DNA of 64,000 nt, taken from NCBI RefSeq assembly GCF_001044255.1, contig NZ_JYNX01000033.1, forward strand, positions 49,466 to 113,465, given 5' to 3'. This document shows, piece by piece, positions 10,973 through 62,352 of the stretch. Both the position numbers and the translations under genes were made by a program. Under the pieces are notes generated by a model that was given only the letters and a program-made list of their open reading frames with translations, ran no database searches and was not told the origin of the DNA. This stretch comes from Mycolicibacterium chubuense. Lineage in GTDB: Bacteria > Actinomycetota > Actinomycetes > Mycobacteriales > Mycobacteriaceae. Position 1 is the first letter of the stretch. Each line of letters opens with the position of its first letter.

Positions 10973-10987
10973 GAGAATGTGATTCTC
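10973..10987. promoter_or_regulatory. GAGAAT-N3-ATTCTC palindrome, site 1
   Basis: GAGAAT GTG ATTCTC, perfect six-base arms. It lies 30 bases before the P450 start and 93 before the membrane-protein start, so it could control both. One of five copies in this window, all in divergent intergenic regions. Confidence 0.7.
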
Positions 10988-11079
10988 ATCTTTGCGCATA
11001 AGGTTTTCACATACGTCCTGTGTCGTCAACGAGGGCGGTCGGCAGGACACCGAGATCACTTCGCCAATGGAGGCAGCTG

Positions 11080-11883
11080 ATGGACAACGACTCGCCAACG
11101 CGGACAGAGCAGGAACCCGAGTTCGCCCGCCCCTGGGCGCGGCACCGATTGAGGATCTACGTCGCGACGGCCGGCTTCACCGCGTTCGTGTTCGTGGCGA
11201 TGACGGTCGGCGTCGGCCTCGGCCTGATCGCGCCGACGTTGACCGCCGACATCGTCGCGAACCTGCTGTTCGGCATTCCCGTCATCCTGCTGCCTCTGGT
11301 CCTGCTATGGGATGCACCCGGCGAGCAGCGCTCCCGACTGGACAGGGCCGCGGAACTGACGTTGTTCTGGCTTCCCTACAGCGCGGCCAGCCAGATCGGG
11401 TACGAGCTCGTGTTCCTGATCGGCCATCCGCTCGGGCTGTGGGAACCCACCAGCGACCCGGGGTGGAAGTGGCTGTGGTGGCAGTACGGGCTCGCCGACA
11501 CCCGCTACACCAGTGGCAACCCCTGGACCTTCGCCCTGGAGGTCGTCGGCGTCGTCACCGGCATCACGGTGTTCATCGTGTGGACCCGGTTGATCCGGCC
11601 CGGACTGCCGCTTGAGTCTCGAATCCGTTGCCTCTGGCTGGCTTTCACCGGAGTCGCGGTCATCTACAGCAGTACGGCGGTGTACTTCCTGGCGGAGGTG
11701 GGTTCGGGCTTCGACGACATCGGCCAAGGACCGTTCGGGTTGTGGTTCAAGTTCATCGGGGAGAACCTTCCATTCATCGTCCTGCCGCCCTTCGTGCTGT
11801 ACGCGATTCACCTGCAGGTCGACTTCCTGACTCGCCGCGCCGGGGTGCCCACGGCGGTCAGCACGCAGAGCCGGCCCGCGTAA
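11080..11883 (+). CDS. emopamil-binding-protein (EXPERA) family membrane protein
   Basis: 267 residues with about five membrane helices (roughly 27-50, 55-75, 150-170, 185-205, 225-250). It matches the eukaryotic sterol delta8-delta7 isomerase EBP in several blocks: QYGLADTRY against EYxKGDSRY, the conserved Glu of FALEVVG, IYSSTAVYFLAE, and GLWFKF...IVLP near the end. A second conserved Glu is in GYELVF, but the EBP His four residues before it is Gln. ATG 11080 has GGAGG six bases upstream. Inference: a membrane isomerase or binding protein for a sterol or terpenoid substrate. Confidence 0.72.
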   Translation: MDNDSPTRTEQEPEFARPWARHRLRIYVATAGFTAFVFVAMTVGVGLGLIAPTLTADIVANLLFGIPVILLPLVLLWDAPGEQRSRLDRAAELTLFWLPYSAASQIGYELVFLIGHPLGLWEPTSDPGWKWLWWQYGLADTRYTSGNPWTFALEVVGVVTGITVFIVWTRLIRPGLPLESRIRCLWLAFTGVAVIYSSTAVYFLAEVGSGFDDIGQGPFGLWFKFIGENLPFIVLPPFVLYAIHLQVDFLTRRAGVPTAVSTQSRPA

Positions 11884-11937
11884 TTGGACATCGGTCAACT
11901 ATTGGCTCTTGCGCTATGACCTGTTAAATTCCGATCT

Positions 11938-12585
11938 ATGACCGCAAAGGCGGGGGTGACGAAAGCTGGCTCCGGTCAGCGTCGGGCCTCGTTTCAACGC
12001 GCGCGGTCACATGAGACCAAACGCATGCTCGTGCAGGCGGCCATGGCGCTGTGGCGCACCAAGGGCTACGCAGTCACCACGGTCGCCGACATCTGCACCG
12101 CGGCAGGTGTGTCGAAAGCCTTGTTCTACTTCTACTTTCCGCGCAAAGAGGATGTGCTGTTCGAGGTGGGGGTGCTGTCCACGCAGTCGGCCTACCGCAC
12201 CATCCGTGCGATGCTCGACAAGCCCTACGAGATCGACGCCGTCCTGCGCGCGGCGCTGACCGCGTTCGAGCGGTCGATGGCGCGCAATCCGCCCGAGCTC
12301 ATCATCGAGACCATCCTCGAGGGCTACCGGCACGAGCACCGCATCCTCGCCGCCGGCGACCCGCCCGACGTGGAGGCCGACATGTTCGGCGAATTGTTCC
12401 GGCGCGCGCAGGCCGACGGCAAGATCGCCCCCGACGTGGACATCGCGCACCTGGCCTATCTGGCGCAGACGCTCGTCAGCGAGGGCGCCCGACACTGGGC
12501 GGCCGGCGCTTTTGGGGGCCGCTCATTCGCCGAGGTCGTCACCACCGACATCTGCACGGTCATCACCGGATCCCAGAGACCCTGA
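11938..12585 (+). CDS. TetR-family regulator
   Basis: 215 residues with an N-terminal helix-turn-helix (TVADICTAAGVSKALFYFYFPRKEDVLFE, about residues 45-73) and a variable C-terminal ligand domain. It starts 54 bases after the EBP-like gene and precedes an acyl-CoA dehydrogenase by 18 bases, so it may head the operon at 12604-15889. Likely ligand: an acyl-CoA or substrate of the local pathway. No clear palindrome was found in its short upstream gap. Confidence 0.9.
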   Translation: MTAKAGVTKAGSGQRRASFQRARSHETKRMLVQAAMALWRTKGYAVTTVADICTAAGVSKALFYFYFPRKEDVLFEVGVLSTQSAYRTIRAMLDKPYEIDAVLRAALTAFERSMARNPPELIIETILEGYRHEHRILAAGDPPDVEADMFGELFRRAQADGKIAPDVDIAHLAYLAQTLVSEGARHWAAGAFGGRSFAEVVTTDICTVITGSQRP

Positions 12586-12603
12586 CGCAGGCGAGGAGGC
12601 CGT

Positions 12604-24481: not shown

Positions 24482-24500
24482 ATGAGAACCTGATTCTCAT
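24482..24500. promoter_or_regulatory. GAGAA-type palindrome, site 2
   Basis: ATGAGAA CCTGA TTCTCAT, seven-base arms, the same GAGAA-N5-TTCTC frame as the other copies. It lies 19 bases before the GTG start of the carboxymuconolactone-decarboxylase-like gene and faces the divergent amidohydrolase. Confidence 0.68.
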
Positions 24501-24519: not shown

Positions 24520-25056
24520 GTGCGCATCCCCCCGCTGCCGGCGGACGAGTGGGATGACGCCGCCGACGGGGCGCTGGCCGGCCTGATACCCGCCGAGCGG
24601 CGCAATCCGGAAGCGACCGGGAATCTGGTCGCCACGCTCGTGCGGCACCCGAGACTGGCCCGGAACTTCCTGCGGTTCAACTTCCACCTGCTCTACGGAA
24701 CCACCCTGCCGCCTCGGCTGCGCGAGCTGGCCGTGCTGCGTATCGCGCTGCTCAGCGGCTGCGACTACGAGTGGCGCCACCACGTCACCATGGGCCGCGA
24801 CGCCGGACTGTCCGACGCCGACATCGCCGGTATCGAGCACGGCGAGGCGTCCGACGAACTCGACCGCGCGGTGCTGGCGGCCGTCGACGAGTTGCGCAGC
24901 GACTCGACCGTCACCGACCCGACCTGGACAACGCTGTCCGCCCACCTCGACGAGCACCAACTGATGGATCTCGTCTTCACGATCGGTTGCTATGGCGCCC
25001 TGGCCATGGCCATCAACACCTTTGGGGTTCAACCCGACCCCGACACAGAGAGGTAA
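24520..25056 (+). CDS. carboxymuconolactone decarboxylase-family (AhpD-like) protein
   Basis: 178 residues of the CMD/AhpD fold: LRELAVLRIALLSGC followed by CDYEWRHH. It lacks the AhpD CxxC pair, so peroxidase activity is unlikely; decarboxylase or ring-cleavage helper is more plausible. GTG 24520 has GAGGAG seven bases upstream. Start is placed after the palindrome at 24482-24500 so that the operator is not coding. Six bases separate it from the Rieske oxygenase. Confidence 0.82.
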   Translation: MRIPPLPADEWDDAADGALAGLIPAERRNPEATGNLVATLVRHPRLARNFLRFNFHLLYGTTLPPRLRELAVLRIALLSGCDYEWRHHVTMGRDAGLSDADIAGIEHGEASDELDRAVLAAVDELRSDSTVTDPTWTTLSAHLDEHQLMDLVFTIGCYGALAMAINTFGVQPDPDTER

Positions 25057-25062
25057 TCATCC

Positions 25063-26379
25063 ATGGCACACTTCCCCAAGCCTGCTGCCGGGAGCTGGAC
25101 CGAGAACTGGCCGGAACTGGGCACCGCACCGGTCGACTACACGGACTCGATCGACCCGGAGCACTGGAAACTGGAGCAGCAGGCCATTTTCCGCAAGTGC
25201 TGGCTGAACGTGGGCCGCGTGGAGCGGCTGCCCAAGGTGGGCAGTTACTTCACCCGCGAGATGCCCTCGGTCGGACCTGGGACGTCGATCATCATCGTCA
25301 AGGACAAGGACGGCGTCGTCCGGTCGTTCTACAACCTGTGCCGGCACCGGGGAAACAAGCTCGTCTGGAACGACTATCCGGGCGAGGAGGTCTCGGGAGC
25401 GTGCCGGCAGTTCACCTGCAAGTACCACGCGTGGCGCTACGCCCTCAACGGCGACCTCACCTTCATCCAGCAGGAGGACGAGTTCTTCGACGTGGACAAG
25501 GCCGACTACGGACTCAAGCCGGTGCGCTGCGAGGTCTGGGAAGGCTTCATCTTCGTCAACTTCGACGACGACGCCGAACCGCTGATCGACTACCTCGGCG
25601 ATTTCGCGAAGGGCCTGGAGGGCTATCCGTTCCACGAGATGACGGAGGTCTACAGCTATCGCTCGGAGATCAGGGCCAACTGGAAGCTGTTCATCGACGC
25701 GTTCACCGAGTTCTACCACGCCCCGGTGCTGCACATGAAGCAGGCCGTCAAGGAGGAGGCGGAGAAGCTCGCCAAGATCGGTTTCGAGGCACTGCATTAC
25801 GACATCAAGGGCCAGCACTCGATGATCTCCTCCTGGGGAGGCATGTCGCCGCCCAAGGACGAGAGCATGGTCAAGCCGATCGAGCGGATCCTGCACAGCG
25901 GACTGTTCGGCCCGTGGGACCGGCCGGACATCAAGGGGGTCGCCGCCGACGAGTTGCCCCCGGCGATCAATCCTTCGCGCCAACCCTTCTGGGGCCAGGA
26001 CTCTTTCGAGTTCTTCCCGAACTTCACGCTGTTGATCTGGGCTCCGGGCTGGTACCTGACCTATCACTACTGGCCCACGGGAGTGGACACCCACATCTTC
26101 GAGGCGAGCCTGTACTTCGTCCCCCCGAAGAACACCCGCCAGCGGCTCTCCCAGGAGCTGGCGGCGGTGACGTTCAAGGAGTACGCGCTGCAGGACGCCA
26201 ACACTCTCGAGGCGACGCAGACCCAGGTCGGCACTCGCGCGGTCACCGAATTCCCGCTGTGCGACCAGGAAGTCCTACTTCGCCATCTCCATCTCACCGC
26301 GCACCGCTACGTTGACGAGTACAAGGAACAGAACGGCCTGACCAAGGCCGCCACGAACGGGAGCACCGCCCATGTCTGA
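25063..26379 (+). CDS. Rieske non-haem iron oxygenase, alpha subunit
   Basis: 438 residues. Rieske box CRHRG ... CKYHAW near residues 91-125; catalytic domain with NWKLFIDAFTEFYHAPVLH, whose two His and a later Asp should bind the mononuclear iron. It hydroxylates or dealkylates a substrate using ferredoxin electrons. No classic beta subunit follows; instead a 114-residue unknown protein overlaps it by eight bases. Start ATG has AGAGAGG nine bases upstream. Confidence 0.92.
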   Translation: MAHFPKPAAGSWTENWPELGTAPVDYTDSIDPEHWKLEQQAIFRKCWLNVGRVERLPKVGSYFTREMPSVGPGTSIIIVKDKDGVVRSFYNLCRHRGNKLVWNDYPGEEVSGACRQFTCKYHAWRYALNGDLTFIQQEDEFFDVDKADYGLKPVRCEVWEGFIFVNFDDDAEPLIDYLGDFAKGLEGYPFHEMTEVYSYRSEIRANWKLFIDAFTEFYHAPVLHMKQAVKEEAEKLAKIGFEALHYDIKGQHSMISSWGGMSPPKDESMVKPIERILHSGLFGPWDRPDIKGVAADELPPAINPSRQPFWGQDSFEFFPNFTLLIWAPGWYLTYHYWPTGVDTHIFEASLYFVPPKNTRQRLSQELAAVTFKEYALQDANTLEATQTQVGTRAVTEFPLCDQEVLLRHLHLTAHRYVDEYKEQNGLTKAATNGSTAHV

Positions 26380-26716
26380 GACCACGACCGCGGCGCTTCC
26401 CGCCGAGTTCGCCGATCTGGAGCGCTTCACCGACTGGTGCCTGGCGACCGAACCGGAGCGCTACGCCAAGCGGCTCGCCTCGACGATGAGCGAGATGCAG
26501 GAGCTCTACGACGCGGGTCTGGCCCGGCTCGAGGACGCGATGGTCTACCTGGACGCCCGATTTCCGCTGCACGATATGCCCGAGGACGCCAAGAACCTGA
26601 TGCACCTGATGCAGTCCGTGGTGATGGTGTCGTTCCCGATCGAGGTCTGGAAGCAACCGCGTGTCCTCGACAGCGGTGCAGCCTGGGTCGAGATCATCAA
26701 GGAGCCGGTGGTCTAG
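26372..26716 (+). CDS. small protein coupled to the Rieske oxygenase
   Basis: 114 residues, mostly helical and acidic (DLERFTDWCLATEPERYAKR...). No known domain recognised. Because it overlaps the oxygenase stop by eight bases and the next start by one base, it is made with the oxygenase and could be an accessory or small subunit. Its function is inferred from position only. Confidence 0.7.
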   Translation: MSETTTAALPAEFADLERFTDWCLATEPERYAKRLASTMSEMQELYDAGLARLEDAMVYLDARFPLHDMPEDAKNLMHLMQSVVMVSFPIEVWKQPRVLDSGAAWVEIIKEPVV

Positions 26717-27951
26717 TGCCGCTGACCCTCACCGCCGCGGGCCTGCTCGACGTCGACGCCGGGGAGATCATCCGTCCGGGCATCGTCACGGTCGATGACG
26801 GCCGGATCGTCTCCGTGGGCGGCGAGATCGCCTCGGACGCCGACGTCCTCGACCTCGGCGACGCCATCCTGCTACCCGGTCTGATGGACATGGAGGTCAA
26901 CCTGCTGATGGGCGGGCGCGGGGAGAACCCCGGCCTGTCCCAGGTGCAGGACGATCCTCCCACCCGCGTTCTGCGCGCGGTCGGCAATGCGCGCCGCACG
27001 CTGCGCGCCGGGTTCACCACGGTGCGCAACCTCGGGTTGTTCGTCAAGACCGGCGGCTATCTGCTCGACGTCGCACTGTCGAAGGCCATCGACGGCGGCT
27101 TGATCGAAGGCCCGCGCGTCATTCCGGCCGGCCATGCGATCACCCCGACGGGCGGACACCTCGACCCGACGATGTTCGCGGCGTTCATGCCCGGTGTGCT
27201 CGAGTTGACGATCGAGGAGGGCATCGCCAACGGGGTCGACGAGATCCGCAAGGCGGTGCGCTACCAGATCAAGCACGGCGCACAGCTGATCAAGGTCTGT
27301 TGTTCGGGCGGTGTCATGTCGCTGACCGGAGAAGCCGGGGCACAACACTATTCGGACGAGGAACTGCGCGTCATCGTCGACGAGGCGCACCGGCGGGGGT
27401 TGCGGGTCGCCGCGCACACCCATGGCGCCGAAGCGGTCAAGCATGCGGTCGCGTGCGGGATCGACTGCATCGAGCACGGATTCCTGATGGACGACGAAGC
27501 CATCCAGATGCTGGTCGACAACGACCGCTTCCTGGTCACCACCCGGCGGCTCGCCGAGTCCATGGATGTGTCGAAGGCGCCGAAAGAGCTGCAGGACAAG
27601 GCAGCCGAGATGTTCCCGAAGGCACGTACGTCGATCAAGGCAGCCTACGAGGCGGGGGTGAAGATCGCGGTCGGCACCGACGCCCCGGCGATCCCACACG
27701 GCAAGAACGCCGACGAACTCGTCACGCTCGTCGACTGGGGCATGCCTCCCGACGCGGTCCTGCGGGCGGCGACCGTGGTCGCCGCGGACCTGATCGACAG
27801 ATCGGGTTCGCTGGGCCGCATCGCCGAGGGTTACCTGGCCGACATCATCGCGGTGCCCGGGGACCCGCTCGCCGACATCGGCGTTACACGCGATGTTTCT
27901 TTTGTAATGAAGGGCGGTAAGGTCTACAAGAATGACACCAACGCGAACTGA
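26716..27951 (+). CDS. amidohydrolase (imidazolonepropionase/prolidase-like), HxH motif missing
   Basis: 411 residues with the metal-dependent amidohydrolase fold: DGRIVSVGG, PGLMDMEVNL, VTPTGGHLD-like GPRV block, Lys of LIKVCCSGGVMS, HTHG, CIEHG and the catalytic Asp of VGTDAP. The first metal box, normally DxHxH, reads MEVNL, so both first His are replaced while later ligands persist. It may bind one metal or use another chemistry. GTG 26716 shares one base with the previous stop; its end overlaps the next gene by 20 bases. Confidence 0.85.
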   Translation: MPLTLTAAGLLDVDAGEIIRPGIVTVDDGRIVSVGGEIASDADVLDLGDAILLPGLMDMEVNLLMGGRGENPGLSQVQDDPPTRVLRAVGNARRTLRAGFTTVRNLGLFVKTGGYLLDVALSKAIDGGLIEGPRVIPAGHAITPTGGHLDPTMFAAFMPGVLELTIEEGIANGVDEIRKAVRYQIKHGAQLIKVCCSGGVMSLTGEAGAQHYSDEELRVIVDEAHRRGLRVAAHTHGAEAVKHAVACGIDCIEHGFLMDDEAIQMLVDNDRFLVTTRRLAESMDVSKAPKELQDKAAEMFPKARTSIKAAYEAGVKIAVGTDAPAIPHGKNADELVTLVDWGMPPDAVLRAATVVAADLIDRSGSLGRIAEGYLADIIAVPGDPLADIGVTRDVSFVMKGGKVYKNDTNAN

Positions 27952-28363
27952 GGATCTGGTCGAGATCCAGCAGCTCCTCGCCAAGTACGCCGTCACCATC
28001 ACCCAGGGTGACATCGACGGGTTGGTCGAGGTCTTCACGCCGGACGGGACCTACAGCGCATTCGGTGAGACCTACACGCTCAACAGGTTCCCGGTTCTGG
28101 TCGACGCGGCGCCCAAGGGTCTCTTCATGACCGGCACCGCGCTCGTCGACCTCGTCGAAGGCGCCGACGGTGCGACCGGAACCCAACCGTTGTGCTTCGT
28201 CGAGCACAGCACACACGACATGCGCATCGGCTACTACAACGACACCTATGTCCGCACCGACGACGGGTGGCGGCTGCGCACCCGGGCGATGACGTTCATC
28301 CGGCGCAACGGCGACCACGACTCCGGACGCCCGCACGCGATCGGGAGGCCCGAAGCGGGATGA
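27932..28363 (+). CDS. SnoaL/NTF2-like protein
   Basis: 143 residues with the cone-shaped NTF2 fold pattern: EDLVEIQQLLAKYAVTITQGDIDGLVEVFTPDGTYSAFG. Family members are small isomerases, dehydratases or cyclases of polyketide and steroid chemistry. It overlaps both neighbours (20 and 4 bases), so it is a firm member of the 24520-30308 operon. Confidence 0.8.
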   Translation: MTPTRTEDLVEIQQLLAKYAVTITQGDIDGLVEVFTPDGTYSAFGETYTLNRFPVLVDAAPKGLFMTGTALVDLVEGADGATGTQPLCFVEHSTHDMRIGYYNDTYVRTDDGWRLRTRAMTFIRRNGDHDSGRPHAIGRPEAG

Positions 28364-29481
28364 ACGACCTCCACGATCCGGCGACGTTCCGGACGCACCT
28401 GGTGGCGTGGCTGAGCGAGAACGATCTGAGCCCGGCCGACGACCATTCACTCGACGGACACCTACGCCAGTTCGCCCGGGTGCAGCGCGCCCTGTACGAC
28501 GCCGGGTGGAACCGCTACGGCTGGCCCGAGCACGCCGGCGGACTCGGCGGCCCCGCCATCCTGCGCGCCATCGTCGGCGAGGAGGTGGTGGGCCGTCGGC
28601 TGGTCGAGCCGGGACCCTATTCGATGCTCGACGTGCTGGCGCCGACCATGATCGACTACGCCTCCCCCGCGCTCGCCGCCGAGATGGTGCCCAAGTTGCT
28701 CAGCGGAGAAGAGATGTGGTGCCAAGGGTTTTCAGAACCTGGGTCGGGAAGCGATCTCGCGTCGCTGACCACTCGCGCCGCACCGCGTGGGGACGACTGG
28801 ATCGTCAACGGCCAGAAGGTGTGGACGAGCTTCGCGCAGTTCTCCCGCCGGTGCGTACTACTCACCCGGACCGGCGGTCCGGATGTGCCGAACCACGAGG
28901 CCATCACCGCGTTCTTCGTCGACCTCGACACCCCGGGGATCACCATACGTCCGCTGCGCACCATGCACGGCGTCGACGAATTCTGCGAGGTCTACTTCGA
29001 CGACGTCGTCGTGGACCCCAGCCGGATGCTGGGCGCACCCGGCGACGGCTGGCGGCTGGCGATGGATCTGCTTCCCTACGAACGCTCCACCTGCTTCTGG
29101 CAGCGCATCGCCTACCTGTACTCACGGTTCGACGCGTTGATCGCCGAGGTGAAGGCGCAGGGTCAGGCCGTGGACTCGGACATGGGTGAGACGTATCTGG
29201 CGCTGCACACCCTGCGCTGCCGGTCGAGGGCCACCCAGCACCGGCTCGCCGCCGGGCACAAACTCGGACCCGACACCTCGGTGGACAAGGTGCTGCTGGC
29301 CACTGCCGAGCAGCGGCTCTACGACACCGCACGCGATCTGCTCCCGGGTGTCGTCGAGCTCGACGACACCCCCTGGCGCACCGAGTATCTGTACTCGCGC
29401 GCGGCCACCATCTACGGCGGCACGGCCGAAGTGCAGCGCAACATCATCGCGCGCCGTCTGCTCGATCTCGGCAAGGAGTGA
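28360..29481 (+). CDS. acyl-CoA dehydrogenase, catalytic subunit type
   Basis: 373 residues. FAD loop FSEPGSGSDLASL, QKVWTSFAQF, and the catalytic Glu in YGGTAEVQRNI, typical of the alpha partner of steroid-type heteromeric dehydrogenases. ATG overlaps the SnoaL stop (ATGA), and a shorter dehydrogenase homologue follows two bases after its stop. Inference: the two form an alpha2beta2 enzyme like the FadE26-29 pairs of cholesterol degradation. Confidence 0.9.
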   Translation: MNDLHDPATFRTHLVAWLSENDLSPADDHSLDGHLRQFARVQRALYDAGWNRYGWPEHAGGLGGPAILRAIVGEEVVGRRLVEPGPYSMLDVLAPTMIDYASPALAAEMVPKLLSGEEMWCQGFSEPGSGSDLASLTTRAAPRGDDWIVNGQKVWTSFAQFSRRCVLLTRTGGPDVPNHEAITAFFVDLDTPGITIRPLRTMHGVDEFCEVYFDDVVVDPSRMLGAPGDGWRLAMDLLPYERSTCFWQRIAYLYSRFDALIAEVKAQGQAVDSDMGETYLALHTLRCRSRATQHRLAAGHKLGPDTSVDKVLLATAEQRLYDTARDLLPGVVELDDTPWRTEYLYSRAATIYGGTAEVQRNIIARRLLDLGKE

Positions 29482-29483
29482 CC

Positions 29484-30308
29484 ATGACCACCGGAATCGA
29501 CGACGCGCTGGACCGCGAGTCACTCGACATGCTGGAGGCCGCGCTGCGCACGACCATGCTGTCGGCGTCGGGCCCGAAGCTCGACGCCGGCCTGGCGGAA
29601 CTGGGCTGGGCCGACATGCTCACGGACACGCCGGAGGTCGCGGTGCCGCTGGTGTTCCGGCTCCTCGGCGAAACGGGCACGCACGCCTCGGTACTCGTCG
29701 ACGTCGTGCTGCATGCCACCGGCAACACGATCGGCGACACCGTCGAACTGCCCCTGCCGTACGCCGGTAACACGTGGGTGGTGTGGGACCGCATCAGCCC
29801 GGCCACCGCCGAGCCGACACTGGGCGGTCTGCCGTTGCGTCGTGAGGAGGAGGGCTATCCGATCCGGCTGGCCGAGGCACGGGTGGCAGTGGGCTGGTGG
29901 CTGGTGGGCTCCGCGCGGGCGATGGTGGCGCTGGCTCGGCGGCACGCGCTGGACCGGGTCCAGTTCGGCAAACCGATCGCCGGCTTCCAGGCGGTCCGGC
30001 ACCGGCTGGCCGAAACGCTCGTGGCCATCGAGGGCGCCGAGGCGACGTTGAGCCTGCCCGCCGTGGACAACCCCGATCTGACCGCGCTGCTCGCCAAGGC
30101 GGCCGCGGGCAAGGCGGCACTGATCGCCGCGAAGAACTGTCAGCAGGTGCTCGGCGGCATCGGCTTCACCGCCGAACACGAGCTGCACCATCACGTCGAG
30201 CGGGTGCTGGTGCTGGACGGATTACTGGGCAGCTCACGGGAACTCACCCGCCGGGCCGGCGCAGGCCTGCGGGCCCGCGGTTCGGCACCGCGCCTGGCCG
30301 ACCTCTAG
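29484..30308 (+). CDS. short acyl-CoA dehydrogenase homologue (partner subunit)
   Basis: 274 residues, about 100 shorter than a full dehydrogenase. C-terminal helical domain is clear (ARRHALDRVQFGKPIAGFQ, QQVLGGIGFTAEHELHHH) but the N-terminal and middle domains are abridged, and no catalytic Glu loop is seen. ATG 29484 has AAGGAG five bases upstream. Stop shares CTAG with the convergent hydratase gene. Likely the beta subunit of the preceding enzyme. Confidence 0.85.
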   Translation: MTTGIDDALDRESLDMLEAALRTTMLSASGPKLDAGLAELGWADMLTDTPEVAVPLVFRLLGETGTHASVLVDVVLHATGNTIGDTVELPLPYAGNTWVVWDRISPATAEPTLGGLPLRREEEGYPIRLAEARVAVGWWLVGSARAMVALARRHALDRVQFGKPIAGFQAVRHRLAETLVAIEGAEATLSLPAVDNPDLTALLAKAAAGKAALIAAKNCQQVLGGIGFTAEHELHHHVERVLVLDGLLGSSRELTRRAGAGLRARGSAPRLADL

Positions 30309-31087
30309 GTGATGTTGGCCTTCATGTGCTCGAGATCCACCAGCACCGGCCATCCCCCGACACTGAGCGCGTTGCCGTGCCCGGTCTGGTGGATGTCGAA
30401 CACCGACTGGATCGCGGCGTAGAAGCCCTGCACGTCCAGCGTCTGGTTCACCGCGCGCTTGGCCTGCCGCAGCCCGAACGGCGGCATCTTCGCGATCTGT
30501 TCGGCCAGCGCCCAGGTCTGGCTGTCGAGCTCGGCGCGGGGCACCACCTTGTTCACCATGCCGGTGGCCAGCACCTCCTCGGCCGTCATCGCACGTCCGG
30601 TGAACAGAATCTCCTTGGCCTTGCGCGGCCCCAATTCCCACGTGTGCCCGTGGTATTCGACACCCCCGATACCCATCAGGACCACCGGATCGGAGAACTG
30701 CGCGTCGTCGGCCGCGACGATCAGATCGCAGGGCCAGCACAGCAGCAGACCCCCCGAGATGCAGCGGCCCTGCACCGCAGCGATCGACGGCTTCGGAACA
30801 TTGCGCCAGCGCAAGGTGTATTCGAGGTAGCGTCGCGCCTCGTGCTCGATGATGAACTCCAACGTGATCTTGTCCGGCACCGGTCCGCCGCCACGCAGAT
30901 CGTGACCCGCGGAGAAGTGTTTGCCGTTGGCGCGCAGCACGATCACCGCGACGCCTGGATCCTGGGCCGCCCGCGTCCATGCTGCATCGAGTTCGTCGAG
31001 CAGCTCGGGGTTCTGCGCGTTGGCCGCCTCGGGCCGGTTCAAGGTGATCGTCGCAATGGTGTCGGTCACGTCGTAGTCGATGTACAT
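30305..31087 (-). CDS. enoyl-CoA hydratase/isomerase
   Basis: 260 residues, crotonase fold: NGKHFSAGHDLRGG and QGRCISGGLLLCWPCDL give the oxyanion hole. A PHTW-like HTWELGPRKAKE segment is in place of the usual catalytic helix, so the precise reaction is uncertain. It is read alone, divergent from the TetR gene at 31227, with the GAGAAT palindrome between. Its stop overlaps the dehydrogenase stop at the CTAG 30305-30308. Confidence 0.88.
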   Translation of the reverse strand: MYIDYDVTDTIATITLNRPEAANAQNPELLDELDAAWTRAAQDPGVAVIVLRANGKHFSAGHDLRGGGPVPDKITLEFIIEHEARRYLEYTLRWRNVPKPSIAAVQGRCISGGLLLCWPCDLIVAADDAQFSDPVVLMGIGGVEYHGHTWELGPRKAKEILFTGRAMTAEEVLATGMVNKVVPRAELDSQTWALAEQIAKMPPFGLRQAKRAVNQTLDVQGFYAAIQSVFDIHQTGHGNALSVGGWPVLVDLEHMKANIT

Positions 31088-31155: not shown

Positions 31156-31170
31156 GAGAATACTATTCTC
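31156..31170. promoter_or_regulatory. GAGAAT-N3-ATTCTC palindrome, site 3
   Basis: GAGAAT ACT ATTCTC, perfect arms, 69 bases before the enoyl-CoA hydratase start and 57 before the TetR start. The TetR gene next to it is one candidate for the protein that binds all five copies. Confidence 0.7.
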
Positions 31171-31226
31171 GTGGTGAGGAAGTTACAATCTCTGACACGT
31201 CGGCCGAGAGGGGGTCCTAGACCGCT

Positions 31227-51770: not shown

Positions 51771-53092
51771 GCTCTGCTCGCAGGTTCCTTCGCTGCCTTC
51801 GCGTCCTTCTCGGCCTGCGCGGCCTTGACCCGCCCCTCGTTGATCTCGGCCATGGCCTCGGGAATCTCCCCGGCGGTGAACTTCCCACCCCGGCCGGTCG
51901 GCAGACCGCCGAACGCGTACGTCTCGTCGAACATCGGTGCGTCCGAGGGCAGCCTGCGCGCCTCGACCTTCTCGATCACCGGCGCCAGCCGCTTGGCCTT
52001 GTCCTTGACCGCCTTCTCGTCGCGCTCGATGAACTCGGGCAGGATCTCGCGGCCCATGATCTCGATGGACTCCATGGTGCCCTCATGGCTGCGCGGATTG
52101 AGCAGCAGGATGATCTCGTCGACGCCGCTTTCCTCGTAGCCGCGAAGGAACTCGCGCACCGTGTCCGGCGAGCCGATCGCACCCCGGCCGGGGCCGTAGG
52201 CCAATGTCGGATCGTCCTTGACGGCCTGCTCGTAGAGTTCCCAGACCCCGGTGCGGCCGGGCGTGTGCATGCCGGTCAGGTAGTAGTGCATGATCCCGAA
52301 CGAGAAGAAGCCCCCGCCGATGCCGAGGCGCTCGAGCGCCTGTTCGTCGGTCTTGGCCACCATCATCGACAGGTCGCCGCCGATGGCGAGCAGGTTGGGG
52401 TTGATCGCCGGAGTGACGGGTGTGCCCTGATCCTCGAACTCCCGGTAGTAGCCGTCGACCCTCTCCTTGAGCGCCTCCGGCCCGGTGTAGGCGAAACTCA
52501 GTGCGCCGATGGCCTTCTGGGCGGCCATCTGGACCGACGACGGGCGGGTACAGGCCACCCACACCGGTGGGTGCGGGTCCTGCAGCGGCTTCGGAATCAC
52601 GTTGCGGGCGGGCATCTCGACGTGCTCGCCCTTGAAGCCGGTGAACGGCGCCTCGGTCATGCAGCGGATCGAGACCTCCAGGGCCTCCTCCCACTGGGTG
52701 CGCTTGTCGGCGGGATCGATGTTGAAGCCGCCGAGTTCGGCGACCGACGAGCCCTCCCCGGTGCCGAACTCCACCCTGCCGTTGGACAGATGGTCCAGCG
52801 TGGCGACCCGCTCGGCGATGCGGGCCGGGTGGTTGATCGACGGTGGAAGGTGCATGACGCCGAAGCCGAGCCGGATGTTCTTGGTCCGCTGACTCGCGGC
52901 CGCGAGGAACATCTCGGGGGCCGTGGAGTGGCAGTACTCCTCGAGGAAGTGGTGCTCGGTCAGCCAGACGGTGGAGAACCCCGCCTTGTCAGCGAGTTCC
53001 ACCTCGTCGAGCCCATGCTGGAACAGCTGGTGTTCGTCGTCCTCGGACCATGGCCGGGGCAGCGGGAACTCGTAGAACAGGGAAATCTTCAC
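51767..53092 (-). CDS. LLM-class flavin-dependent monooxygenase
   Basis: 441 residues of the bacterial luciferase-like fold: MKISLFYEF start, WLTEHHFLEEYCH, LGFGVMHLP and HDFNP-like FGTGEGSSV segments. Two-component enzyme that needs free reduced FMN, which the FMN reductase in the same operon can provide. Candidate Baeyer-Villiger or hydroxylation step. GTGA overlaps with both neighbours. Confidence 0.88.
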   Translation of the reverse strand: MKISLFYEFPLPRPWSEDDEHQLFQHGLDEVELADKAGFSTVWLTEHHFLEEYCHSTAPEMFLAAASQRTKNIRLGFGVMHLPPSINHPARIAERVATLDHLSNGRVEFGTGEGSSVAELGGFNIDPADKRTQWEEALEVSIRCMTEAPFTGFKGEHVEMPARNVIPKPLQDPHPPVWVACTRPSSVQMAAQKAIGALSFAYTGPEALKERVDGYYREFEDQGTPVTPAINPNLLAIGGDLSMMVAKTDEQALERLGIGGGFFSFGIMHYYLTGMHTPGRTGVWELYEQAVKDDPTLAYGPGRGAIGSPDTVREFLRGYEESGVDEIILLLNPRSHEGTMESIEIMGREILPEFIERDEKAVKDKAKRLAPVIEKVEARRLPSDAPMFDETYAFGGLPTGRGGKFTAGEIPEAMAEINEGRVKAAQAEKDAKAAKEPASRA

Positions 53093-54846
53093 TTCTGGTT
53101 ACCTCCTTGAAGTTCGGGCGACGGGGACGGAAGAGCGGTGTCGGCGATGTGGCGGGCCGCGACGAAGCCGAAGGTCATGGCCGGCCCGATCGTGGCGCCG
53201 GCCCCGGCGTAGCTGCGGCCCATCACCGCGGCCGAGGCGTTGCCGACGGCGTAGAGACCGTCGATCACGGTGTCGTCGGCACGCAGCACCCGCGCGTGCT
53301 CGTCGGTGCGCAGACCACCCGAGGTGCCGAGATCGCCCAGGATGATCTGAAACGCGTAATAGGGCGGATCGCCGAGCGGATACAGATTCGGGTTGGGCAG
53401 CGTCGGGTCGCCGTAGTAGTTGTCGTAGGCGCTGTCACCGCGGTCGAAGTCGTCGTCGTGCCCGCTGCGGGCCAGCGCGTTGAAGCGGTCTGCGCTGGCG
53501 CGCAACCGGTCTGCGGGCACGCCGATCTCGCGAGCCAGTTCCTCGAAGCTGCGGCCCTGCTTCACCACACCGGACTCCAGCCACGCCGCCGGTACCTTCC
53601 GTCCGGTCGGCACCGGCGCAAACGGCACCTTCGGGATCGGCAGATGCCCGGCGACCACATAGCGGTGGAACGACCGGACGTCGGTGACGAGCCAGCACGG
53701 GATATGGGTGACGCCCGAGCGCTGGCCCTCGATCATCGCGTGCGCGAAGTCCATGTAAGGCGCGGCCTCGTTGATGAATCGCTCGCCGGCGCCGTTGACC
53801 ACGAACTGCGACGGCATCATCCGCTCGTTGAGCATGAACTGCAGTCGGCCGTCGGGCCAGCAGATCGCCGGAAACCACCACGCCTCGTCGAGTAGCTCGG
53901 TCGAGGCGCCGACCTTCTCCCCCGCCCGGATGCCGTCCCCCGTCGCCGCGGGGTTACCGAAGCTCCAGTCCTGCTCGAGTTCGGGCAGATGTTCACGCCG
54001 CCAGGCCATGTCGTGATCGAAGCCGCCGCTGGCCAGGATCACGCCGCGGCGGGCGCGGATGCGAAGCGCATGCCCGTCCCTCTCCACGACCGCCCCGACC
54101 ACCATGCCGTCCACATCGGTGATCAGTTCGGTCATCGGCGCATCGAGCCACAGCGGAATGTCGTGCTGCTTCATCGCCAGTCGGAGCCGCGCGGCCAGCG
54201 ACTGCCCGATGGCCGCCATCCGGTCGCCGAACACCCGCGCCCGGAACATCCGCCAGATCAGTTTCATCAGAACGGCTTTGCCGCGCCAGGATTGCCGCAC
54301 CTGATAGAACAGCCGCAGGTCCTTGGGCCCGAACCAGATGCCCTTGGGCGCCAGCGCCAGCGGGGCCAGCAGATTCTGCTCCTCATCGCCGAGGACGCGC
54401 AGGTCGATCGCGTCCACGTTGATGGTGCTGCCCAGCGCCGAACCGCCCCGTACCTCCGGGTAGTAGTCGGCGTAGCCCGGCTTCCACACGAACTCCAGCC
54501 ACGGGCTGCGGTTCTCGAGGAACTCCATCATCGCCGGTGCGGCGTCGACATAGGTGCGCAGCCGCGCGTCGCTGACCAGTCCGCCGGTGATCTCCTTCAG
54601 ATAGAGGAACACCTCGTCCGGGTCGGGCACGTGCCCGGCACGGCGCTGCGACGGCGCGCCGGGCACCCAGATGCCGCCGCCGGACAGCGCGGTCGAGCCC
54701 CCGAACCGCGGCGACTTCTCCACGACCAGGGTGTCCAGCCCGGCGGCGTCCGCGGTCAGGGCCGCCGTCATGCCCCCGCCGCCGGACCCCACGACCAGCA
54801 CGTCGGTGGTGTGGTCGAAGTCCGGGTCGGCTGTCTGCGAGCTCAC
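53089..54846 (-). CDS. KstD-like FAD-dependent 3-ketosteroid 1-dehydrogenase family protein
   Basis: 585 residues. FAD motif [11 protein letters not shown] near residue 20, [12 protein letters not shown], and the C-terminal [15 protein letters not shown], which carries the conserved Tyr and Gly of 3-ketosteroid delta1-dehydrogenases. Length is within the family range. GTG 54846 overlaps the dioxygenase stop. Other family members act on non-steroid enones, so the substrate is not proven. Confidence 0.85.
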
Positions 54847-55784
54847 GCTGTCACCGCCGTCCGGATCGCGAATCCGGCGATCAGTTCCGGGGCGGCCCGG
54901 TAGAACCGGTGCCCCGTCGCATACGGGCCCTGGGTCGCCAGCGCCGCTAAGGCCGCCACCCAGGTTCTGACCTCGTGTGCTGAATTGCCTGCCTGCGCGG
55001 CGATCCAGGCGTTGTCCCACCCGTCGACCTCGCTGAGTCGGTTGGTGTCCAGCAGATCGAGGAACGCGTGATCCCAGGCCGGATTCAGTGGGGCCAGCGA
55101 TCCCTGCCCGGCGGCGAACTCACGCGCCGCCTCCATCACCGCGGTCTGGCGGGCCTGTCGCTGTTCGGAGGTCATCGGGACGCCGTGCACGATGCGGTCG
55201 AGCGCTGCCGGAGGTGCCGTGGCCAGCGTGGGCACCGGCGGATCGTGCGACAGTCCCCCCGACCCGATGATCAGCACCCGCTTCCCGAGCGAGGCGAGGT
55301 AGCCGCCGACAGCCTCACCGAGGGCCCGGACCCGCCGCATCGGTCCGAGCGGTGTGGCCACCGAATTGACGAACACGGGGATGACGGGCTTGGCGGTCGC
55401 GTCGCCGAAGAGTTTCTCCAGCGGTTGCACGGTGCCGTGGTCGACCTGCATCGCCGCCGACAGCGCCACATCGACGTCGGCAGCGAGAACGGCCGCAGCA
55501 CAATCGATTGCGAGGTCACCGGGCACGTCGAGCGGGCCCTGATACGTGCCGTAGTCACCGACGCCCTCGGCGGCGGTGCCGATGCAGAACGGCGGCATGG
55601 CCCGGTAGAAGAACCCGTTGTAGTGGTCGGGCGAGAACGTCACGACGAGATCGGGGTCGAAAGCGGCGACGAAGTCCCGTGCCGCATCGATAGCCGACCC
55701 GATGTCGTCAAGCAGATCCCGTGACGGTCCGGGAAGGTTCAGCAACGGGCTGTGCGACATGGCGCACACCGCAAGTGTCGACAT
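54843..55784 (-). CDS. mhpB: class III extradiol dioxygenase, MhpB-like
   Basis: 313 residues, matching E. coli 2,3-dihydroxyphenylpropionate 1,2-dioxygenase over its full length: SHSPLL (metal His), [41 protein letters not shown] and NPAWDHAF. It opens the ring of a catechol next to its side chain using Fe(II). ATG has AAGGAGG upstream, all within the end of the mhpA-like gene. Confident on family, not on the exact catechol. Confidence 0.92.
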
Positions 55785-57405
55785 GAGAACCGGATCCTCC
55801 TTCCGTGGTCAGGTGGAGCGCGGCGAACAGGGCCTGCGACACCTCCGGTGCGCGCTGGGCGATGCAGGCGGCCGCGATGCAACGGTCAGGACGAAGGAAC
55901 AGCACCGAGTCGGTCGAGGCGTCGAACCACGACTTGAGCGCCCCTGAGCGGTCGCCGACGACCGCCACCGCGTCGTCGTCATGCCCCGTCCAGTGCAGCT
56001 GCGTCATCGGTCGGACCTCGATGAACCTGGCGCCCAACGTGTTCCACCGCGCGAAGGCGGAGTCACCGAGTACGGCCCGCAGATTGTTGCTCCAGCACAG
56101 CACCGCGAAGCCGGGCCCGAGCACATCGTCGAGAAGCAGATTCCGGCCGTGGCGGGTGTCGACCCGAGGCTGGATGAACAGCGTGCCCGTCGGCGAGTTC
56201 GCCGATGTCGAGGAGGACGCAACATCGTGGTACACGGCGCCCTCGGTGTAGCGCGGCATCGGCTTGAACCGCATCTCGAGCACATAGCGCTTCAGCGTGG
56301 GGACCGCCGAGGCCGCATGGATCACCCGGTCCCGCAGCGCGGCCACCCGGGTGTTCGTGGGCGAGATGACCCGGCCGACCATCGTGGACAGGTCGATCAT
56401 CGCCCGGGCGTGCCTGCGGCGTTCGATGTCGTAGGTGTCCAGCAGCGCGTCGCCGGCCTGCCCGGTCACCACCGCGGCGAGCTTCCAGCCCAGGTTGGCG
56501 GCGTCGCGGATGCCGCTGTTGTAGCCCTGTCCCTGCCACACCGGCATCAGGTGGGCGGCGTCGCCGGCGAGCAGCAGCCGGCCCGCGCGGAACGACGAGG
56601 CGATCCGCGAATGGTGGGTGTAGACCCGGTGGCGGATCATGTGCACACGCTCGGGATACGGGATCCGCTCGGCGAGCATCTGGGAGACGAACGCCGGATC
56701 GTCTGCCTGTTCGTCGGATTCGTGGGGATGGATGAGGAACTCGAAACGACGGATGCCGTGGGCGATGGCGATCGAGACATAGGGCCTGCGCGGATCGGCG
56801 CCGACCTCACTGTTGGGATGGCCCAGGGGATCGTCGGCGAGGTCGACGACGAGCCACCGAGTCGACGAGGTGGTGCCGTCGAACGAGACATTCATCAGCC
56901 GCCGCGTCGCACTGCGGCCGCCGTCGCACCCCACGACATAGCGCGCGCGCACCCGGGCGCCGTCGCTCAACTCGACCGTCACGCCGTCGGCATCCTCCCG
57001 GCACGTCCGCATGCCGCGCCCGAACTGCACGTCGACATGGTCGAAGCGGTCGAGGCCGGCGAACAGTTCGGCGTCGACCATCGGCTGGACGAAACCGTTG
57101 CGCTTCGGCCACCCGAATCGCGCGTCCGGAGGCGCCATCTCGGCGAGCAGACGCCGCTTCCCGTCGAAGAACCGCAGGATCTGGTTGGGCACCGTGTGGG
57201 GCAGGATGCGGTCGACCAGGCCGATGGACTGGAAGGTGCGCAACGCCTCGTCGTCCAGGCCGACACCGCGCGGATAGTCGATGAGCGTGTCGCGCTCCTC
57301 GGCGACGAGTGTCCGGACTCCGTGCAGGCCCAGGATGTTGGCCAGCGTCAGGCCGGACGGCCCTGCCCCGACGATGACGACGTCCACGTCGTCGGGGGCG
57401 TTCAT
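55708..57405 (-). CDS. mhpA: FAD aromatic hydroxylase, MhpA-like
   Basis: 565 residues of the bifunctional 3-(3-hydroxyphenyl)propionate hydroxylase family. FAD motif GAGPSG, NADPH/FAD motif GCDGGRS, and [18 protein letters not shown]. It adds a hydroxyl beside a phenolic OH to make the catechol used by the dioxygenase. Start ATG 57405 overlaps the hydrolase stop. Its last 25 residues run on into the mhpB-like gene, giving a 77-base overlap. Confidence 0.9.
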
Positions 57406-58268
57406 GTACGCCCCAGCAGGAAGTCCAGGTGCAGCCGGTCGAAGGTCTTGGGATCCTCGTACTGCGGCCAGTGGCCGCACCCCGCCATCACCTCGAAGCG
57501 GGCACCCGGGATCATCGACGCGATCCGTCGGCCCTCCTCGACGTCGGCGGTCGGGTCGTCACTGGTCCACAACACCAGCGTGGGCGCGCCGATTGCGCCG
57601 TACTCGTTGGGACCCAACAGGTTCCGGGCGCGGATTTGCGGATCCTGCAGCGCCATGATGTCGCGCATCGCATCCACGAACCCGGGCTGGCGGTAGACCC
57701 GCTGCCGGCTGGCCACGATGTCGTCGTAATCCCTGGACTTGTCGGCCATCAGCCACTTGATGCGGGCCTGCACCGTCTCCCACGTCGGGTTCTCGGCCGC
57801 GGCCATCGACAGCGTGACGATGCGCCTCATCACCTCGGGGTCGGCCTGCGACCCGCCCGCGGTGTTGAGGACGAGCCGGTCCACCCGGTCGGGGTGGTCG
57901 ATGGCGAACCGGGAGGCCACCCACCCGCCGAGCGACTCACCGCTGATGTGCGCCCGTTGCGCGCCGATCGCGTCGAGGACGGCCACCAGATGTCCGACGT
58001 AGTGGGCGATTTCGAGAGGATGGCCCGGCTTGTCGGTGTACCCGTGCCCGAGCATGTCGATCGACCAGGTGGAGAAGTGCCCGGCGTGCGCCTCGAGGTT
58101 GCGCACGTACGCCTCGGCGTGCCCACCCGAACCGTGCAACAGCACCAGGGCCGGGGCGGCGGGATCACCCGCGTGCAGGAACCGGGTGCGCACGCCACCG
58201 GCATCGAGGTAACCCTGCGAGAACGGGACGCCCTGCAGGTCGCTCCACACGCTCTCGAACTCCGCCAC
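57402..58268 (-). CDS. mhpC: meta-cleavage-product hydrolase, MhpC-like
   Basis: 288 residues. Alpha/beta hydrolase: [12 protein letters not shown], nucleophile SGESLGG, acid in [11 protein letters not shown] and the late GHWPQYEDP His. It hydrolyses the C-C bond of the ring-opened product. GTG 58268 is preferred: AAGGAG lies six bases before it, and the upstream frame passes through the palindromic operator 58317-58331. First gene of the operon, divergent from the IclR gene. Confidence 0.87.
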
Positions 58269-58316: not shown

Positions 58317-58331
58317 GAGAATTGTATTCTC
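58317..58331. promoter_or_regulatory. GAGAAT-N3-ATTCTC palindrome, site 4
   Basis: GAGAAT TGT ATTCTC, perfect arms, followed by a T-run (CTTTTTTTG). It is 49 bases before the mhpC-like start and 96 before the IclR start, so it lies in the control region of the ten-gene operon. Confidence 0.72.
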
Positions 58332-58426: not shown

Positions 58427-59152
58427 ATGACCCGAGCGTCCGCAGCCCCCGGCCGTCACCTCACCCCGGACGGAGCCGCCGCGAGCGCACCGGGATCGCA
58501 GACCCTGGCGCGCGGCCTGAGTGCCCTGCAGCTCGTCGCAAGTTCCCCCACCGGCATGACCGTGGCGCAGGTCGCCGACGACATCGGCGTGCACCGCACC
58601 ATCGCCTACCGGCTGCTCAGCACCCTGGCGTCGTTCCGGTTCGTGGCCAAGGGTGAGGATGGCCGCTACCGCTCCGCGGCGGCACTGGCGGTGCTCGGGG
58701 CGTCGTTCGACAACAACGTCCGCACCATGGCCGTCCCCACACTGCGCAGCCTGGCCGACGAGCTCGGCACCACGGTCTCTCTGCTGGTCGCCGAAGGCGA
58801 TCAACAGGTCGCGGTGGCCGTCATGGTCCCGACGAACGTCTACTACCAGCTGTCCTTCCACGAGGGCAGTCGCTACCCCCTGGACCGCGGGGCTGCCGGC
58901 ATCGCGTTGCTGGCCGGCATGCCGCCCCGCCCCGGCGAGCGCGAGCTCGTCGGCGAAGCCCGCCACCGGGGCTGGGTGATCACGCACGGCGAGATCGAGC
59001 CGAACACCTATGGGCTCGCGGTGCCTGTGCGCCGCCGACCACCGTCGCCGCCCACCTGCATCAACCTGATCTCGCATCGCGAGGACGTGGTCCGCGACGG
59101 CCGCGAGTCAGTCATCAAGGCAGCCAACGAGTTATCGGCGATCCTCGGCTGA
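58427..59152 (+). CDS. IclR-family regulator
   Basis: 241 residues. Winged helix (TVAQVADDIGVHRTIAYRLLSTL, about 45-67) followed by an IclR effector domain. IclR proteins often control aromatic catabolic operons, and E. coli MhpR is of this family. It is divergent from the mhpC-like gene, so it is the best candidate for controlling that operon. The KstD-like gene 22 bases downstream is read with it. Confidence 0.9.
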   Translation: MTRASAAPGRHLTPDGAAASAPGSQTLARGLSALQLVASSPTGMTVAQVADDIGVHRTIAYRLLSTLASFRFVAKGEDGRYRSAAALAVLGASFDNNVRTMAVPTLRSLADELGTTVSLLVAEGDQQVAVAVMVPTNVYYQLSFHEGSRYPLDRGAAGIALLAGMPPRPGERELVGEARHRGWVITHGEIEPNTYGLAVPVRRRPPSPPTCINLISHREDVVRDGRESVIKAANELSAILG

Positions 59153-60819: not shown

Positions 60820-60827
60820 CTCGGCGA

Positions 60828-61409
60828 ATGACGTCGCCCCGCACCGGAACCAGGTTCAGTGCGATCCGGCGCACGGCAGCACAAACCCGCGTGCTCGATG
60901 CCGCCCTGAGCATGATCACCGAGCACGGCGTGAGCGGGACCTCGCTGCAGATGATCGCCGACGCGATGGGCGTCACCAAAGCCGCGGTCTACCGCCAGTT
61001 CAAGACCAAGGACGAGATCGTCCTCGCGTTGACCGAACGGGAACTCGGCAGGCTGGAAGAGGCACTGGAGGCCGCGGAAGCCGAACCGTCGGCGTCGCGG
61101 GCGCGAGAACTCCTCCTCGATCGCGTCATCGACGAGGCCGTCGAGCGGCGGCGTGCCGCCGCGACACTGCAGTTCGATCCGGTCATCGTCCGGTTCCTGG
61201 CCGACCACCCGCCGTTTCAGCAATTCATCGGCCGGCTGTTCGCGGTCCTCATCGGCGAGAACACACCGCAGGCTCGTCTCCCCGCCGCGATGTTGTCGGG
61301 CGCCATCGCCGTCGGCGTGATGCATCCCCTGGTGGACGACATCGACGACGACACGCTGCGCACCCAATTGCTCTTCTACACAAGGAAACTGGTGGACCTG
61401 CCAGAGTAG
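60828..61409 (+). CDS. TetR-family regulator
   Basis: 193 residues. Helix-turn-helix TSLQMIADAMGVTKAAVYRQFKTKDEIVL (about 43-71) and a mostly helical ligand domain. ATG 60828. It is downstream of the KstD-like gene and carries its own operator, so it could control both its own transcription and the convergent or nearby SDR genes. Confidence 0.9.
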   Translation: MTSPRTGTRFSAIRRTAAQTRVLDAALSMITEHGVSGTSLQMIADAMGVTKAAVYRQFKTKDEIVLALTERELGRLEEALEAAEAEPSASRARELLLDRVIDEAVERRRAAATLQFDPVIVRFLADHPPFQQFIGRLFAVLIGENTPQARLPAAMLSGAIAVGVMHPLVDDIDDDTLRTQLLFYTRKLVDLPE

Positions 61410-61410
61410 G

Positions 61411-62283
61411 TCAGCGATCGTCGCCGACCACCAACTGCGCGGCCGCCGCGTAGGGATCGCAGGTGCCGTCGGCCACGGCCGCTGCCAATCGGTCGAGGTC
61501 GGCGTGTGTACGCAGCAGCGTCGCGGCCATCGACAGGATCTGGGAACGGGCTCGTGCCGCCCGCCGGGCCGGGCTGTCGGAACGGTGGTGGGCGGAGATC
61601 GTCTCGACGAGTTCGGTCACGCCGTCGCCCTGCGCGGCGACGAGTTTGAGGATGGGCGCGTGGGTTTCGGCGCGCAGATCGCGCACGGTCTGGTCGGCTC
61701 CCGTGCGATCGGCCTTGTTGACCACGACGATGTCGGCCACCTCGAGGAGGCCGGCCTTGGCGGCCTGCACCGCGTCTCCGGCGCCGGGGTTGAGGATCAC
61801 CACCGTCGGGTCGGCCACCGCGGCGATCTCGATCTCGGACTGGCCCACCCCGACGGTCTCGACGATCACCAGGCCGTACCCGAGCGCCGACAGCAGGGTG
61901 ATCGCCGCGGGCACCGCCGCGGCCAGTCCACCGAGATGTCCCCGGGTCGCGACCGACCGGATCAGCACGTCGGGATCGTTGATGTGGGCGGCCATCCGGA
62001 TGCGGTCACCGAGCAGTGCCCCGCCGCTGTAGGGCGACGACGGGTCGACCGCGAGGACCGCGACCCGTTCCCCACCTGCGCGATAGGCCCCGACCAGGGC
62101 GCCCACCGTGGTGGACTTCCCCGCACCCGGAGGACCGGTGATCCCGATGACGCGGGCGGGCGCCGGGACGCCGACCGCTGCCAGCACCTCCGGTCGTCGC
62201 GGACCCTCCACGAAGGTCAGCAACCGGCCGGTGGCCCTCGCCGACCCGCCGCGGGCCGCGCAGATCAGCTCGTCGATGGTCAC
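61411..62283 (-). CDS. MeaB/ArgK/MMAA-like GTPase
   Basis: 290 residues. Walker A GPPGAGKSTT, the MeaB loop DPSSPYSGGALLGDRIRM, ETVGVGQSE and guanine motif NKAD. These G proteins load and protect the B12 cofactor of methylmalonyl-CoA mutase and related mutases. No mutase is present in this window. GTG 62283 has AAGG eight bases upstream; GTG 62292 is possible. Divergent from the SDR at 62386 with a GAGAAT palindrome between. Confidence 0.88.
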   Translation of the reverse strand: MTIDELICAARGGSARATGRLLTFVEGPRRPEVLAAVGVPAPARVIGITGPPGAGKSTTVGALVGAYRAGGERVAVLAVDPSSPYSGGALLGDRIRMAAHINDPDVLIRSVATRGHLGGLAAAVPAAITLLSALGYGLVIVETVGVGQSEIEIAAVADPTVVILNPGAGDAVQAAKAGLLEVADIVVVNKADRTGADQTVRDLRAETHAPILKLVAAQGDGVTELVETISAHHRSDSPARRAARARSQILSMAATLLRTHADLDRLAAAVADGTCDPYAAAAQLVVGDDR

Positions 62284-62337
62284 GTCACGCACCTTACGCA
62301 GACGTTCTTCACTCGGACAGCTGCCCGCTCCCGTAGC

Positions 62338-62352
62338 GAGAATGTTATTCTC
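62338..62352. promoter_or_regulatory. GAGAAT-N3-ATTCTC palindrome, site 5
   Basis: GAGAAT GTT ATTCTC, perfect arms. It lies 55 bases before the MeaB-like start and 34 before the SDR start. Same form and setting as the other four copies. Confidence 0.7.

Follow-up and report, generated by a model that had tools for sequence, protein, structure and literature searches.

A proposed TetR-type regulator of mycobacterial degradation genes

Regulators of the TetR family bind palindromic DNA as dimers and release it upon binding a ligand. In Mycolicibacterium chubuense (genome of 5.945 Mb in 96 contigs), one such palindrome, GAGAATNNNATTCTC (GAGAAT-N3-ATTCTC), recurs in the last 64 kb of contig C33, a stretch referred to here as the window, as well as elsewhere on C33 and on contig C6. 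With high confidence, the palindrome can be assigned, as its predicted operator, to the TetR-family product of the gene at 31227-31946, which would act as a dimeric autorepressor across a block of ~115 kb and be released by a metabolite.

The system that works most similarly is KstR (Rv3574 / MSMEG_6042). The available part of its published description (PMC1995591) presents a TetR-type autorepressor with a divergent promoter, dispersed intergenic operator copies and a large lipid-degradation regulon, all features observed or predicted at the present locus. The KstR palindrome partly overlaps the -10 region, as is predicted here, and the same occlusion logic is set out in that text (PMC1995591). 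Its half-site AGAAC resembles GAGAA(T/C), but the core given there, TnnAACnnGTTnnA, has an N2 spacing, in contrast to the N3 of the 15-bp site (PMC1995591). KstR is also described in the same text as highly conserved in mycobacteria (PMC1995591), whereas the 31227 TetR is missing from 26 of 148 genus genomes. None of the nine C33 and C6 sites with zero or one mismatch has the KstR core within 20 bp; the core occurs once on C33 and not at all on C6. The 31227 TetR gives only a weak match to KstR (5ua2_A, E 6.5e-04, residues 47-144). On this weak match, the protein was rejected as a KstR orthologue; both operator and protein differ.

KstR2 (Rv3557c), which controls steroid C/D-ring genes, recognizes a motif unlike the palindrome here. 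Its regulon differs too, and many other TetR structures appear to match the structure model of the 31227 TetR as well or better. Acyl-CoA-responsive TetRs of the FadR and AibR type are among the predicted fold matches (5gp9, 3whb, 5k7f); their targets differ, and a fold match of such quality would not establish the ligand. Another system is Motif X, assigned to an Rv0767c-type TetR (G155_05115) of Mycobacterium sp. VKM Ac-1817D, whose palindrome lies at 14 operons, most of them phytosterol-induced, according to the accessible portion of PMC6593523. Motif X also occurs at its own TetR gene (PMC6593523), a likeness that concerns arrangement. The sites of Rv0767c are rich in GAC/GTC and poor in TAA/TTA (PMC10312376), unlike the palindrome here.

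Among the papers searched, none contained any of ten 15-mers or two consensus forms, and no printed description of the palindrome was found. A survey of mycobacterial TetR motifs covers 30 regulators by Rv number, as far as the accessible text goes (PMC4482099); its logos are not comparable as letters, and one of them may resemble the present operator. Because the operator and protein of KstR differ and no printed description was found, the pair is best regarded as a new regulator and operator of a familiar type.

A palindrome confined to one block

An earlier note on the window described four exact copies of the 15-bp palindrome and one long-armed form, each between divergently read genes. 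This observation is confirmed, with every copy at its claimed position:
10973..10987, operator GAGAATGTGATTCTC, between a P450 gene (9669-10943, minus strand) and the gene at 11080 (plus strand); one-mismatch syntenic copy in the near relative G054
24482..24500, operator ATGAGAACCTGATTCTCAT, arms of 7 bases with one mismatch against the 12 fixed positions, between an amidohydrolase gene (22961-24256, minus strand) and the CMD-Rieske operon (24520, plus strand)
31156..31170, operator GAGAATACTATTCTC, in the gap between the enoyl-CoA hydratase (ECH) and TetR genes; predicted autoregulatory site, invariant in 81 aligned sequences apart from its central base (see below)
58317..58331, operator GAGAATTGTATTCTC, between an alpha/beta hydrolase gene (57402-58268, minus strand) and an IclR gene (58427, plus strand); exact syntenic copy in G054
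62338..62352, operator GAGAATGTTATTCTC, between a MeaB-like gene (61411-62283, minus strand) and a pair of short-chain dehydrogenase/reductase (SDR) genes (62386, plus strand)

The divergent arrangement at all five agrees with gene calls made by a home-made codon-usage script, which overlooked at least one gene of the window (54843-55784, a LigB-type dioxygenase). The neighbours named in the note are supported by Pfam apart from the "EBP-like" protein (11080-11883), for which neither Pfam nor NCBIfam gave a match at E 1e-5.

Genome-wide, there are seven exact copies (C33:15907, 47004, 60438, 80621, 107782 and 111803; C6:28978), compared with 0.034 places expected from base composition, and a backwards control pattern has none. 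Within the window, eight places carry at most two mismatches, against a mean of 0.69 in shuffled sequence, and none of 100 shuffles reached eight. One-mismatch copies add four places (C33:13101, C33:73949, C19:175039 and C96:12231). Nine of these eleven places lie on C33 and C6, where all nine are intergenic, although intergenic DNA makes up only 6.0% of C33 and 8.4% of C6 by the home-made calls, and seven are between divergent genes; C33:13101 and C33:15907 sit between genes of the same direction. Those beyond the window are C33:13101, 15907 and 47004 and C6:28978. The two places on other contigs are inside long open reading frames: the C19 copy in one of 563 codons, the start of which looks P450-like by eye only, and the C96 copy in a frame open across the entire 3-kb locus. 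The GAGAA-N5-TTCTC form occurs eight times in the genome, on C33 and C6 only. The copies are short, palindromic and dispersed, as a repeat, an insertion footprint or a product of base composition might be. Such an origin is nonetheless extremely improbable, given the excess over expectation, the confinement to one block, the intergenic positions and a central triplet that varies among copies and among species between fixed arms. The note had likewise judged chance an unlikely explanation.

In G054, whose TetR is 97% identical to the 31227 TetR, all nine copies with at most one mismatch recur by the same genes on one chromosome (2579179-2693952). Judged by the gene order of G054, the window and C6 meet at their right-hand ends. 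By this synteny, the C33 and C6 copies belong to a single block of ~115 kb; the predicted regulon is larger than the window showed. The C33 two-mismatch places at 24507, 41450, 47130 and 81422 are conserved letter for letter in G054; for those at 17519, 86064 and the coding place 105250, the same 15-mer was not found there.

The TetR at 31227 and its predicted operator

The note had proposed one dimeric regulator, possibly the TetR at 31227, and this assignment is the one that comparison with other genomes supports. The genes concerned are:
31227..31946, plus strand, TetR-family regulator of 239 aa, proposed operator owner
30305..31087, minus strand, ECH, divergent from the TetR gene; near TetR in G378, G191, G264 and G177, and not found in the 80-kb locus of G226
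58427..59152, plus strand, IclR-family regulator, rejected as motif owner

Residues 56-101 of the TetR match PF00440 (TetR_N) with 30.9 bits against a cut-off of 24, and the structure model predicts an all-helical TetR fold with a C-terminal ligand domain. The best 80 of 407 relatives, from Mycobacterium, Mycolicibacterium or metagenome-assembled genomes of Mycobacteriaceae, were taken as orthologous loci. An exact copy precedes the TetR start in all 80, at 71 bp in 69, 70 bp in six and 79 bp in five. With the window included (81 sequences), positions 31156-31170 of the ECH/TetR gap are identical throughout, the central base 31163 excepted.

Co-occurrence was examined in a genus sample of 148 genomes, with a threshold of at least 75% identity for a TetR orthologue. 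Genomes with a distant match (G009, G070, G098) were scored as TetR-lacking, and those with a match truncated at a contig end (G041) or bearing an internal stop (G005) as TetR-bearing. TetR is present in 122 genomes, and the number with one or more exact motifs is likewise 122; the two coincide in 120, with the motif only in two, TetR only in two and neither in 24 (Fisher p 4e-23, uncorrected for phylogeny). Every genus genome with at least two copies has the TetR (118/118). A family sample of 251 genomes from 31 genera (threshold E 1e-40) gave 64 with TetR and 77 with an exact motif. TetR is found in all 54 family genomes with at least two copies, and none of the 187 TetR-lacking genomes has more than one. 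In six mixed genera, at least two copies occur in 31 of 41 TetR-bearing genomes versus 0 of 53 TetR-lacking ones.

The association extends to five 80-kb loci from five other genera (G378, G191, G264, G177, G226). A copy with at most one mismatch lies upstream of TetR in all five, and another just behind TetR in four (not G177). G378, G191, G264 and G177 keep acyl-CoA dehydrogenase, ECH, Rieske, MeaB-SDR and Fer2-FadD units, several of them headed by the motif; G226 retains few of these genes around TetR.

The IclR at 58427 could itself own the palindrome: one copy is in its own promoter, it is found in 116 of the 118 motif-rich genus genomes, and A/T-rich palindromes are given for IclR, KdgR, AllR and SsgR in the accessible part of PMC8222616. 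That it is the owner is nevertheless highly improbable. No IclR was found in G137 (100% complete, seven exact copies) or G139 (93% complete, four copies), and its match in G045 (eight exact copies) has two internal stops. The TetR loci of G137 and G139 carry exact copies; that of G056 carries a one-mismatch copy. The five other-genus loci keep motif copies but contain no IclR orthologue at 40% identity or above. The IclR gene also adjoins an mhp-like hydroxylase, LigB dioxygenase and hydrolase set, and the MhpR motif given in the same part of PMC8222616 (GTNCG-N5-6-CGNAC) is unlike the palindrome. As overall co-occurrence is as strong for IclR as for TetR, its rejection rests on the three genus genomes, where the regulator is missing or interrupted and the motif abundant, and on the other-genus loci.

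The remaining TetRs of the island (12025, 16389, 46944 and 60891) all have a TetR_N domain, and three of the five other-genus loci retain TetR 16389. Ownership by one of the four is very unlikely, since the gap immediately preceding each of these genes contains neither an exact nor a one-mismatch copy. TetR 16389, the one of the four covered by the co-occurrence comparison, is moreover missing from six of the 118 motif-rich genomes (G041, G057, G076, G091, G103 and G139), although single absences in G139 and G041, that of IclR from G139 included, are weak because these genomes are 93% and 89% complete.

Several observations weigh against ownership by the 31227 TetR. Around the TetR orthologues of G063, G089 and G026 (77-82% identity), the 11-15 kb examined contain no copy with two mismatches or fewer. 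In G089 the expected place is occupied by GAGAACACTATTACC, which may be a decayed copy. Since these three genomes have zero or one exact motif genome-wide and no IclR match, they can be read as regulons in loss. Conversely, G044 and G070 (73% complete) each carry a single exact copy but no TetR orthologue. In the family sample, 16 of 251 genomes carry a single copy without TetR, some excess over the ~6 in 187 expected at the G+C content of the M. chubuense genome. Three TetR-bearing family genomes (G241, G344, G351) lack an exact copy and seven have only one. IclR co-occurs nearly as tightly (116/118), with a Fisher p smaller than that of TetR. The owner comparison covered the 31227 TetR, IclR and TetR 16389, and the confidence of the TetR structure model is middling.

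Two close paralogues of the TetR are present in seven genus genomes (G016, G022, G069, G073, G086, G101 and G130). In G073, a palindrome lies 73-83 bp upstream of each paralogue (L196, L197), one exact and the other GAGAAGCAACTTCTC.

Operator pattern and possible promoter elements

The symmetrised pattern (A)TGAGAAY-N3-RTTCTCA(T) comes from 251 copies in the scanned loci, each with zero or one mismatch; many of these are orthologous, so this is not a count of independent sites. The inner base is T in 81% and C in 18%, and the flanking base is T in 57%. Since C/G frequently takes the place of T/A at the inner pair, (AT)GAGAAY-N3-RTTCTC(AT) describes the operator better.

The place, number, conservation and intergenic position of the copies, together with their co-occurrence with the TetR gene, are the basis of a proposed mechanism. 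A TetR dimer would sit on the palindrome with one subunit per half-site and keep RNA polymerase off both its own divergent promoter and the remaining operator promoters of the ~115-kb block. A metabolite of the pathway would then free the TetR and turn the regulon on. An acyl-CoA thioester is the likeliest candidate; this type of ligand is suggested by the gene content and by KstR2, as presented in the available part of PMC6593523.

The ECH/TetR operator contains TACTAT, in reverse TAGTAT, a TANNAT -10-like hexamer on each strand, and could be used as a -10 element from either strand. With such hexamers within the operator, occlusion of polymerase would follow. TACAAT at 31184-31189 is a possible TetR -10 and its reverse, TTGTAA, a possible ECH -35 at 16-nt spacing. 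These bases fall within a second conserved feature:
31178..31198, plus strand, conserved block beside the operator, nearly as fixed across the 81 sequences
This block (GRAAGTTACAATCTC and some further bases) may be a core promoter, a leader or a second protein site.

Predicted target genes and weaker sites

Beyond the ECH/TetR gap, the operator is predicted to head a core target operon:
24520..30308, plus strand, CMD, Rieske oxygenase, unassigned protein, amidohydrolase, SnoaL-like protein and two acyl-CoA dehydrogenases
The operon is complete in G378 and G191, has an insertion in G264 and lacks CMD in G177, with the motif at its head in each; it was not found in the 80-kb locus of G226. In 70 of the 80 loci, a copy with at most one mismatch lies 5.6-9.5 kb upstream of TetR, and five of the remaining ten are too short. 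The SDR gene likewise has a copy with at most one mismatch upstream of it in G378, G191, G264 and G177, four of the five loci from other genera.

Three weaker sites were also considered:
31957..31971, weak operator with two mismatches, directly 3' of TetR and ahead of the P450 at 32170; G054 has the identical 15-mer in this position
32050..32064, weak copy GAGAAGCTTGTTCTT, upstream of the P450 at 32170; exceeds the two-mismatch cut
36599..36613 (C33:86064), weak copy with two mismatches, between an acyltransferase (35773, minus strand) and a 3beta-HSD-like epimerase (36633, plus strand); half-site only in G054

A copy with at most two mismatches occurs within 300 bp 3' of TetR in 69 of the 80 loci. 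Two of these weak sites, 32050-32064 and 36599-36613, had been put forward as degenerate copies. The latter holds with its two mismatches; the former fails the cut, yet G054 has GAGAAGGTAGTTCTT at the corresponding place, a GAGAAG-N4-TTCTT form that is also found 91-100 bp past TetR in four of the 80 loci (L076, L078, L080, L085).

Gene content and likely substrate

The block encodes amidohydrolases, paired acyl-CoA dehydrogenases, FadD ligases, CoA transferases and P450s with ferredoxins, along with a Rieske oxygenase, thiolases and ChsH2-type OB-fold proteins. This gene content strongly suggests that the regulon is catabolic, as the note had supposed of a single large regulon, and suggests a substrate of the steroid, terpenoid or alicyclic-acid type. 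One part forms a distinct branch:
53089..58268, minus strand, mhp-like branch with hydrolase, hydroxylase, LigB-type ring-opening dioxygenase (54843-55784) and KstD-like dehydrogenase

The branch hydroxylase passes the cut-off of the 3-(3-hydroxyphenyl)propionate hydroxylase model, and the KstD-like dehydrogenase falls below the cut-offs of named 3-ketosteroid dehydrogenase models. The region 53089-60788, within the block, also has its own IclR and a flavoprotein resembling 4-oxocyclohexanecarboxylate dehydrogenase (below the model cut-off). This set suggests aromatisation of an alicyclic ring, then ring opening.

Elsewhere in the window, 38508-40943 encodes an 811-aa protein in which two stretches match CoA-transferase family III, and 3667-5160 a ChsH2-type OB-fold domain fused to a thiolase-like C-terminal domain. 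An adjacent M24/creatinase-like peptidase gene pair of the block (41915-44310) is 63% and 76% identical in G054, below the conservation of its neighbours.

Implications

That the locus represents a master regulon of Mycobacteriaceae not described before, alongside KstR and KstR2, is about as likely as not. A single TetR would preside over a ~115-kb block for the complete breakdown of a polycyclic or alicyclic natural product, with a nested mhp-like aromatic branch run by IclR and an operator doubling as a symmetric -10 element for both divergent genes. As judged from the genomes compared, the TetR switch very probably controls its own gene and a large degradation block in mycobacteria and some relatives, and the degraded compound is probably steroid- or terpene-like.

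The pair opens a large, probably catabolic block to experimental test, with its regulator present in 122 of 148 genus genomes and in species of eight other sampled genera. The 15-mer allows regulon members to be located in related genomes. If the assignment is true, loss of one repressor should turn on the entire block, and the ligand should point to the substrate.

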